The position numbers and the translations under genes were made by a program. The notes under the pieces are model-generated. The model had not been told where the DNA came from. It did not search any database and worked only from the letters and a program-made list of their open reading frames with translations. This document shows, piece after piece, positions 23,177 through 24,937 of a stretch of DNA of 32,562 nucleotides (the stretch's first letter is position 1; the number at the start of each line of letters is the position of its first letter). The DNA comes from Porticoccaceae bacterium (GTDB lineage: Bacteria > Pseudomonadota > Gammaproteobacteria > Pseudomonadales > Porticoccaceae), in assembly GCA_002731695.1 (NCBI GenBank), contig PCCK01000084.1:1-32562 (forward strand), written 5' to 3'.

Positions 23177-23875
23177 TCACTCGGACTTTTGGTGTATGCC
23201 TTCGACCCAACTACCCTCAACCGACGACTGATTCTGAAACACATATCTGCCTCGACCATGCCGCTTCCCCGAGGCAAAGCTACCTTCATAGAACTCTCCA
23301 TTTTTGCAAACATACTTTCCAAATCCATTCATCTTATTTTCACTCCATTCACCCTGGTAAGAATCACCATTGAAAAACGATGATCGCCCCTCCCCATGCC
23401 GTTTACCATTAACAAACTCTCCCTCGTAAGTAGTACCGTTAAGGTAAGAGGATTTGCCTTTTCCGGTGCGCTTGCCGGCTAACCAATCTCCTTTATAGGA
23501 AGAGCCGTCCGGATATTTATAGTTACCGAGTCCATGGCGCTTATCATCCCTCCAGCTACCACTATAAACTGCCCCACTGGGATGCTTATAAGTACCCTCT
23601 CCACTACGTTTGCCATTTTCCCAAGTACCTTCGTAAACTGCTCCCATTGACCATCTAAATGTCCCTTTACCATGATAAAGCCCATTTAGCATATCTCCTT
23701 CATAGGTATTGCCATTATGAAAGGACATACGTTGATTTACGGATTTTTCAGCATTAAGCTGATTATTCAACCTCGTCTTGGCGATGGAAAGGGCGGCAAG
23801 CTCGTCGGCATTACTCGTGAGAGTATTCTCAAAGGATATATGCACCGGTGACAGTGGATTCTTATAATTATTCAT
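23177..23875 (-). CDS. MORN-repeat protein
   Basis: 232 residues with no signal peptide or membrane segment. After a 50-residue helical N-terminus come seven full MORN repeats and one partial repeat, starting at residues 58, 81, 104, 127, 150, 173, 196 and 219: an exact 23-residue period. Typical units read YEGTWENGKRSGEGTY and YEGEFVNGKRHGEGRS. MORN arrays form rigid beta-hairpin rods that bind lipids or proteins; they are common in eukaryotes and scattered in bacteria, with varied roles. The function here is not known. It is 41 bp downstream of the coiled-coil gene on the same strand and probably translated from the same message. Confidence 0.88.
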   Translation of the reverse strand: MNNYKNPLSPVHISFENTLTSNADELAALSIAKTRLNNQLNAEKSVNQRMSFHNGNTYEGDMLNGLYHGKGTFRWSMGAVYEGTWENGKRSGEGTYKHPSGAVYSGSWRDDKRHGLGNYKYPDGSSYKGDWLAGKRTGKGKSSYLNGTTYEGEFVNGKRHGEGRSSFFNGDSYQGEWSENKMNGFGKYVCKNGEFYEGSFASGKRHGRGRYVFQNQSSVEGSWVEGIHQKSE

Positions 23876-23916
23876 AAAAGCACCATTTAAACCATACCCT
23901 TTTTTCTTCTCACGAA

Positions 23917-24633
23917 TTAAACATTGATATGTTGTCTATTTTCCAGGTATGACGCTCTATTTTTCATAATCTCATCGCGCCTTGCCGAGATAGTATTTTT
24001 ATTTTCCGAAAGAGCCTCAGCATTCTCAATTGACGTCTCCATTATCTCCATAATGCGCTCGGACTGCTCGTTTGACTCAGACGCAACTCCCTCTAACAGC
24101 GCCTCATTCTCGGACATTAAACGGGCATTTTCCTGATGAGTGAAATCTAGGTCTGCCGATGTTCCATTCAATAAATTACTATTGATCTCAATTTGACGCG
24201 AGTTGAATGAAACAATTTTTTCGTTAGCCTCCATTATTTTATTGTTGATCTTTATCAGGCTGGCGTTTATTTTCGCCATATCCTCGCTGATACTCAAGAC
24301 TGCTGTGTTCAGTGCGCTACGGTTTTCTAGAAATGTTAACTCTGCATTACTTACTTTCACGCGAATAGTTTCAACCTCCAAATCAGTTTTAGTCTCAACT
24401 GACTCCAAAATAGCCCTTCGATTTGCATAAATTTCGTCTGTGTTATGGTTTGCTAACTGCCGATTCCCCATAAAAGCCGCAGCATAGTTACTCAAGATCA
24501 TCATACGATTTTCTTCAATCATGGCACGCGATTGATAAAGTGATGCCTTATGACTCATAACGACAGTCCTGACGTCACTAATTCTTTTTTGTACCTCTGA
24601 TAGCGACTTGGTCTTGATTTTTATACTCTCCAT
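23917..24633 (-). CDS. Asn/Arg-rich coiled-coil protein of unknown function
   Basis: 238 residues, almost entirely helical in composition, with no Pro or Cys and no signal peptide or membrane segment. An Asn-Arg motif followed by a hydrophobic residue recurs at intervals of about 14-15 residues or multiples, as in EENRMMILSN, MGNRQLANHN, YANRRAILES, LENRSALNTA, MKNRAS and LENRQHINV, suggesting a repeat-built helical rod. I recognise no domain. ATG 24633 is favoured, with AGGGG five bases upstream; an in-frame GTG at 24639 lies within that site. It precedes the MORN gene and may form a structural complex with it. Regulation is suggested by a leader hairpin over the ribosome site and a perfect -10. 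Confidence 0.75.
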   Translation of the reverse strand: MESIKIKTKSLSEVQKRISDVRTVVMSHKASLYQSRAMIEENRMMILSNYAAAFMGNRQLANHNTDEIYANRRAILESVETKTDLEVETIRVKVSNAELTFLENRSALNTAVLSISEDMAKINASLIKINNKIMEANEKIVSFNSRQIEINSNLLNGTSADLDFTHQENARLMSENEALLEGVASESNEQSERIMEIMETSIENAEALSENKNTISARRDEIMKNRASYLENRQHINV

Positions 24634-24638
24634 TTTCA

Positions 24639-24719
24639 CCCCTAGATATTCAGTTGCAAAATAAGCAATAGAGTAGCTAACTTTCGCTCGTAAGAAAACA
24701 AGCTAAGTGAATATGGGGG
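24639..24719 (-). promoter_or_regulatory. Leader hairpin covering the coiled-coil gene's ribosome site
   Basis: In minus-strand RNA the 5' segment CCCCCATATTCA (24719-24708) can pair with TGAATATCTAGGGG (24652-24639), leaving a small bulge. An inner TAGCT/AGCTA pair (24705-24701 with 24678-24674) nests inside. The GGGG of the second arm is the Shine-Dalgarno of the gene starting at 24633. Folding would hide it, so translation could be switched by temperature, a protein or a ligand. Seen by eye; no energy was calculated. Confidence 0.45.
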
Positions 24720-24747: not shown

Positions 24748-24753
24748 ATTATA
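24748..24753 (-). promoter_or_regulatory. Perfect -10 element for the coiled-coil/MORN unit
   Basis: The minus strand reads TATAAT here, preceded by CGTTTCGA. No good -35 lies 16-18 bases upstream, so an activator or another sigma contact may be needed. Transcription would start near 24741, just before the leader hairpin, which fits the layout. Confidence 0.45.
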
Positions 24754-24937
24754 TCGAAACGGGTACAAAGGATCATAGGGATTAGAGACCACCACTTACG
24801 GGCTAACTGCAAGTAAGTCAAGCGCTCAGGTTAATGGCCGAAAACGCGACGAAAAACGCTAGACCAAAACGTTTGTGTGGCAAAATATTATGATAAGTTG
24901 TTTACCAAAAACCGCACTGTAAGTCGCTAGTTGCTAC

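Follow-up and report, generated by a model that had tools for sequence, protein, structure and literature searches.

A MORN-repeat protein gene and a gene for a predicted three-helix protein with regularly spaced asparagines, co-inherited as a pair within one genus of Porticoccaceae

Introduction

MORN repeats are widespread and known from several solved structures, and their functions are described in PMC7725318 as poorly characterised. As told there, the groove of MORN4 binds a protein partner, namely the tail of myosin 3a. For helical proteins with regularly placed asparagines, PMC12933892 describes trimeric coiled coils whose asparagine triads can hold chloride. Here, we analyse two adjacent genes within a 32,562-nucleotide stretch of DNA (referred to below as the window; contig PCCK01000084.1 of assembly GCA_002731695.1, from a marine bacterium recorded as Porticoccaceae bacterium), one of which encodes a MORN-repeat protein (MORN) and the other a helical protein with recurrent asparagines (CC). 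Literature searches covering bacterial, coiled-coil, scaffold, and lipid-binding MORN proteins and SAR92 returned nothing on a CC-MORN pair among the matches listed, and no work joining SAR92 and MORN was found in them.

Gene arrangement

Both genes are read on the minus strand, with CC (24633 or 24639 to 23917) followed by MORN (23875 to 23177). The CC reading frame gives 238 amino acids from an ATG at 24633 (23917..24633, minus strand) or 240 from a GTG at 24639. The GTG, six bases earlier, overlaps an AGGGG run resembling a ribosome-binding site, which makes the ATG the likelier start; the ATG also coincides with the start of close orthologues. MORN (23177..23875, minus strand) encodes 232 amino acids and is separated from CC by 41 bp (23876..23916, minus strand), a same-strand gap that is consistent with a single transcript. 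Across the ten pairs described below, this gap ranges from 31 to 126 bp. On the downstream side, an ABC transporter operon that encodes a solute-binding protein, a permease, and an ATPase runs toward CC and MORN, and its end adjoins the pair. Upstream of CC, after about 300 bp, are a BolA-like gene and genes for the beta subunit of oxaloacetate decarboxylase and a biotin-domain carboxylase subunit.

A promoter-like site, ATGATC-17-TATAAT, is located 108 bases before the GTG start (24748..24776, minus strand); it is a consensus match from which function does not follow. Five orthologous upstream regions share the conserved block in which the site falls, even though the next gene upstream differs. 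Elsewhere, large proteins that look glycoside-hydrolase-like by eye are encoded upstream of the pair. As the upstream gene varies in this way (the BolA and oxaloacetate decarboxylase genes occupying the place in the window), the idea of a third gene of the module was dropped. Flagellar-type sigma-28 and sigma-54 promoters, sought before the CC genes, gave weak and inconsistent matches.

The MORN-repeat protein

The MORN protein is a member of PF02493 (E 1.2e-44, 148 bits against a curated cut-off of 22.5), with seven stretches passing individually in Pfam. The initial annotation had claimed an unbroken 23-residue period across eight units, and the register is indeed exact: eight tandem units of 23 residues each begin at residue 49 and extend to residue 232 (23180..23731, minus strand), the eighth being degenerate and without the Tyr of the YEG motif. 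The self-match at lag 23 is 39%, against a maximum of 16% among 10,000 shuffles. In the predicted model (mean pLDDT 86.8), the first 19 residues are poorly predicted, a helix spans residues 22-43, and a continuous array of beta-hairpins follows, with the rod fold of solved MORN structures (6t6q, E 3.7e-21, rmsd 1.4 A). By its modelled fold, the protein is an ordinary MORN rod and adds one more member to a fold class already known. The 48 residues that precede the repeats are poorly conserved beyond the close group, which makes it less likely that the N-terminal helix has a general role.

A hydropathy scan makes neither a signal peptide nor a membrane helix apparent in either protein (maximum 19-residue values of 0.38 for MORN and 0.86 for CC), and recognised enzyme domains are absent from both in Pfam, PHROGs, and NCBIfam. 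These results agree with the earlier proposals that neither protein carries a signal peptide and that neither resembles a metabolic enzyme.

The CC protein and its asparagine ladder

CC had been described as a repeat-built helix, a coiled coil with recurrent Asn-Arg motifs. The recurrence stands, with NR at positions 44, 59, 73, 106, 227, and 234 and asparagines in heptads, but in place of one coiled-coil helix the AlphaFold2 model, for which 11 sequences were used, shows three long helices that are similar in length (2-79, 86-157, and 168-238; mean pLDDT 89.2, pTM 0.73). None of the curated libraries searched (Pfam, PHROGs, NCBIfam, and PADLOC) contains the CC family. Its best Pfam match has E 0.0022 and 18.9 bits, below the cut-off of 27, neither PHROGs (best E 0.067) nor NCBIfam (E 0.32) gives a solid match, and PADLOC and the PDB sequences give zero matches. 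A Foldseek comparison of the model with the PDB and viral models returned nothing under E 0.001 (best PDB E 0.17), and the best VIA-align Z is 7.6, a value of the kind that the tool warns is common for helical bundles. BAR-domain proteins and designed three-helix bundles (3caz, 4tql) share the three long helices of the CC model, with weak Foldseek matches (E 0.97 for 3caz and 0.5 for 4tql) and, for the BAR rows, VIA Z values of 4.9-5.8, within the range that a common arrangement gives. As these rows are weak, kinship of CC with BAR domains, ClyA-like pores, or designed bundles was not accepted.

Conserved asparagine columns occur at heptad spacing in all three predicted helices. Invariant or near-invariant are Asn 44, 51, 59, 66, and 73 in helix 1 (where one step is eight), Asn 111, 125, 132, 139, 146, and 153 in helix 2, and Asn 178, 206, 213, 227, and 234 in helix 3, while in some heptads another residue takes the asparagine place. 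Most family members also have Asn 9, 30, 171, and 192, of which the window CC has only 171. The strength of the seven-residue period was matched in 4, 0, and 2 of 5000 column permutations for helices 1, 2, and 3, respectively, in a test on 26 of 29 rows from which three divergent rows were omitted. Among columns with at least 70% Asn (36 rows), 20 of 21 fall on the heptad ladder, the positions of which were chosen post hoc with the data already seen.

Hydrophobic residues are found in helix 2 at N-1, N+3, and N+4 and in helix 3 at N-3 (modulo 7), and it is on this basis that the asparagines may be placed on or beside the hydrophobic face. Judged from the helix limits alone, the asparagines of helices 2 and 3 would stand level to within about one residue, and those of helix 1 to within two to three. 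The net charge of CC varies across the family from about -17 to +23 with the asparagines retained throughout, which fits a structural role for them in the core. Twenty-eight of the 37 CCs are acidic; homologues from small-genome alphaproteobacteria (L039, L040, L114, L115, and L116) are very basic, with a net charge of about +22.

A 2OG-Fe(II) oxygenase was considered as a partner enzyme that might act on the asparagine ladder and was dropped. PF13759 has no match in the window's genome. The family occurs in 12 of 27 genomes (10 of 24 CC-bearing ones), and in G790 and G491 it is found some 2 kb or less from CC; a PF13640 gene adjoins CC in G007.

Distribution and linkage

With the window CC as query, CC was found in 13 of 97 relatives, including 11 of 14 same-genus genomes, many of them with two or three copies; the nearest named relatives by CC, from Porticoccaceae or Cellvibrionales, are 78-80% identical. 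The host probably belongs to the SAR92 group, of which PMC10746254 names the cultured isolates HTCC2207, H231, H455, and H921. A profile search of a 398-genome sample of the phylum recovered only the window's own genome. In samples of one alphaproteobacterial family and of one order, both centred on genomes with known CC, the counts were 5/295 and 5/28, and a single plasmid record out of 72,556 carried the gene. This sparse occurrence in genome, plasmid, and phage searches suggests that CC is rare and patchy and has probably spread by transfer. The plasmid homologue, WP_044039177.1 (a hypothetical protein on Octadecabacter arcticus plasmid pOA238_160), belongs to the same family; its identity is 44% with the window CC and 52% with the second CC copy of the window's genome. 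Unlike the window CC, it has no MORN neighbour and stands alone between two IS6 transposase genes (L095, 7959-8672), an arrangement that suggests transfer. At a further locus (L113, 7926-8327), a gene for a BLUF blue-light sensor lies directly upstream of a divergent CC gene.

A MORN orthologue is present in 10 of the 14 same-genus genomes, and in all ten it lies directly behind CC on the same strand, the CC of the G008 pair (L120) being a contig-end fragment of 67 amino acids. The four genomes without MORN (G005, G009, G011, and G012) are also without a CC of the MORN-linked clade; G012 holds three other full-length CCs and the remaining three have no CC match, with G009 and G012 giving weak absences at less than 75% completeness. 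The pair adjoins the ABC transporter operon in six genomes (G000, G002, G003, G004, G006, and G010, a single gene intervening in G004). In G001 and G013 its neighbour is a class-V aminotransferase-family gene, and in G007 a GFO/IDH/MocA oxidoreductase gene; the contig of the tenth pair, in G008, is too short to show its setting. With at least three settings represented, the pair stays together despite changed surroundings. The nine full-length MORN-linked CCs form one clade with support of 99/97 in a 36-row tree, which omits the L120 fragment and L121. Averaged over five close genomes, CC has a pN/pS of 0.23 and MORN one of 0.22, compared with 0.13-0.15 for the neighbouring ABC genes (one of the three taken from four genomes), so that both genes are under purifying selection, looser than that on their neighbours. 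On the strength of this linkage, the single CC clade, and the purifying selection, CC and MORN are a real co-inherited module in the genus. Mirror-tree correlation was discarded as a sign of partnership: the distances between CC sequences follow those between MORN sequences with r 0.99, and the correlation is equally high with the neighbouring transporter genes and shows shared descent only.

The wider CC family places this module in context. No MORN gene lies near CC at 27 of 37 loci (within 5 kb in the sequence covered, the flank being short for some rows and only 356 bp after CC in L119, where a MORN gene could be missed), and CC consequently does not need MORN. In this count, L035-L038 and L042 duplicate contigs of G010, G003, G002, G006, and G007 and were counted once, and the contig-end fragments G002:C38 and G012:C13 and the weak hit G010:C15 stand outside the 37; the 6.0 and 8.3 kb examined around the two fragments contain no match to MORN. 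The second CC copy of the window's own genome (G000:C11) likewise lacks a nearby MORN gene. CC belongs to a wider family, and MORN accompanies a single lineage of it as an accessory. A second, longer, and different MORN gene is present in G001 (L148, 6250-7434; G001:C60) on a 12-kb contig without CC, which indicates that MORN genes in the genus are not bound to CC generally. The orphan two-gene module of the initial annotation is therefore genuine as a conserved pair, although CC is not an orphan. The separate occurrence that the initial annotation named as refuting its proposal is seen for CC, which has no MORN nearby at most of its loci, and is not seen for MORN, which was adjacent to CC in every one of the ten genomes.

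Discussion

The proposal that we favour, with a probability of roughly 0.45, is that the two proteins form a cytoplasmic scaffold without enzymatic activity, the CC rod being gripped by the groove of MORN, plausibly at the flagellar apparatus or a cell pole. CC would fold on itself into an antiparallel three-helix rod of about 11 nm, with the helices taken from the prediction and their packing conjectural, and the core of this rod may carry stacked layers of asparagine. MORN, to judge from its family match and model, would be a curved rod of beta-hairpins with a groove along its length, and it is conceivable that this groove, possibly aided by the N-terminal helix, grips the CC rod or a helical hairpin of CC and so tethers or crosslinks CC to something else. 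That the groove binds CC is suggested by the MORN gene tracking one CC lineage and by the binding of myosin 3a in the MORN4 groove, as recounted in PMC7725318. The partnership would have arisen in one lineage of the wider CC family, with other CC paralogues working without MORN. The place of action is the weakest step of the proposal. The opposite net charges of the window pair (+6.2 and -6.1) were rejected as evidence of binding, as they are not kept in all pairs; MORN has a net charge of only -0.7 to -1.7 in the pairs of G001, G013, and G008.

Since this bacterial MORN protein has a single neighbour that is genetically fixed, testing for a partner is simple. On the side of CC, the core-like asparagine pattern is strictly kept and might serve to form anion layers, to set register, or to allow reversible opening, and the small size of the protein suits testing.

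The same observations could be read differently. The two genes might share a transcript while their products work independently: CC would be a structural or regulatory helix bundle sufficient in itself, and MORN a separate adaptor that binds membranes or proteins. The MORN-less CC paralogues, which include the second copy in the window's genome, would be expected under such independence, as would the four same-genus genomes without a MORN match, among them G012 with its three full-length CCs. It would, however, make the adjacency in ten of ten genomes and the single MORN-linked CC clade a positional coincidence maintained through at least three settings, and we consider it unlikely. The initial annotation had also entertained a system that faces a host or phage; such a role, whether in defence, as a toxin, or at the surface, is highly improbable and finds no support in the data. 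It could draw on the Octadecabacter gene between IS6 transposase genes and on one CC homologue on an IMG/VR contig (L121) that also carries genes which, by eye, are type I restriction-like. Against these stand the lack of any PADLOC match for either protein at E up to 0.1, the lack of a CC match in 50,697 phage records, the hydropathy scans with no signal peptide apparent, and window neighbours given over to transport, BolA, and decarboxylase genes. L121 was the only IMG/VR contig matched by the CC alignment, and the 6.9 kb of it that were examined contain no match to MORN; the homologue (53-946) sits at one end of the sequence examined, and the viral nature of the contig is doubtful. MORN matches on viral contigs amount to six loci, and one phage record matches at 30%. 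A phage or plasmid origin of the pair was likewise set aside, CC being absent from the phage records and the IMG/VR search with the single protein being empty.

It could also be speculated that the CC family as a whole is flagellum-associated, for example as an accessory of the C-ring, the export apparatus, or filament assembly, with MORN a lineage-specific adaptor for one paralogue. Both divergent-clade members lie inside flagellar operons: in G058, the order is fliM-fliN-fliO-CC, followed by a flagellin-domain gene, and in G007:C64, it is fliM-fliN-fliO-TPR-2OG oxygenase-CC. The G058 homologue matches the Octadecabacter CC in a separate tblastn search (24% over 84%, E 4e-11). Among 24 CC-bearing genomes checked (a set that leaves out G492 and the Octadecabacter chromosome), FliM/FliN is present in 22, a flagellin domain in 22, and at least one of the two in all 24, and within one order of 28 genomes FliM/FliN occurs in 5/5 CC-bearing genomes versus 5/23 others (p 0.0026, ignoring kinship). 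On the other hand, the flagellar-operon homologues are only 26-27% identical, and outside the divergent clade neither the window CC nor any other locus read has recognised flagellar genes nearby, a reading in which not every neighbour was family-searched. CC is found in none of 20 main flagellar regions examined, no flagellar family matches it in Pfam at E up to 1, and G005 and G011 of the same genus have FliM/FliN without CC. Among the 97 relatives, the association is weak (12/13 CC-bearing genomes versus 56/84, p 0.052, the genomes not being independent). The flagellar link is a lead, not proof; a flagellar role for the whole family seems somewhat unlikely, and the lead is still the first place to seek a function for CC. 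A more elaborate version, which we regard as quite doubtful, would make CCs undescribed single-chain three-helix rods whose asparagine layers are able to hold anions such as chloride and which work with the flagellum of marine bacteria, one paralogue having recruited a MORN rod in one genus; this would give a bacterial adaptor of a beta-rod and a helix-rod, with MORN repeats of the type also present in eukaryotic radial spokes and axonemes of solved structure.

The loci behind this lead have features of their own. Before fliM in G007:C64 lie genes that are fliK-like and fliL-like by eye, and G007 has another, ordinary fliM-fliN-fliO cluster elsewhere, so that C64 looks like a second flagellar system. 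The loci L119 (G007:C64, 226-7405) and L118 (G058:C45) are probably such a second system in Porticoccaceae, with CC after fliO in place of the usual export genes. CC-bearing genomes (G003, G012, G773, and others) contain up to 14 flagellin-domain matches per genome and very long frames with a flagellin N-domain, of up to 1607 amino acids.

Comparison with known systems

Returning to the scaffold that we favour, its MORN component can be set beside solved relatives. The model of the window protein has the same beta-hairpin rod as Toxoplasma MORN1 (6t6q; TM 0.75/0.84), and the MORN1 proteins of Toxoplasma, Plasmodium, and Trypanosoma (6t6q, 6t4d, and 6t4r) are likewise arrays of MORN units, superposing at rmsd 1.4-2.1 A over 181-189 columns. 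Unlike MORN1, the window protein is bacterial, has eight units and an N-terminal helix of its own, and is encoded beside a CC partner gene. The MORN fold is also shared with MORN4 in its complex with the myosin 3a tail (6jle; rmsd 1.6 A over 121 columns), and by analogy the window groove is a candidate to take a segment of a partner. The putative partner in the window is a different, helical protein, and its binding is conjectured where that of myosin 3a is described.

For CC, a comparison can be made with the trimeric coiled coils that carry asparagine triads, described in PMC12933892. CC likewise has asparagines at core-like heptad positions, at heptad spacing in each helix, and follows the pattern [I/L]xxN in helix 3. 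It differs from them in being one chain, with three helices in the model, and in having many asparagine positions.
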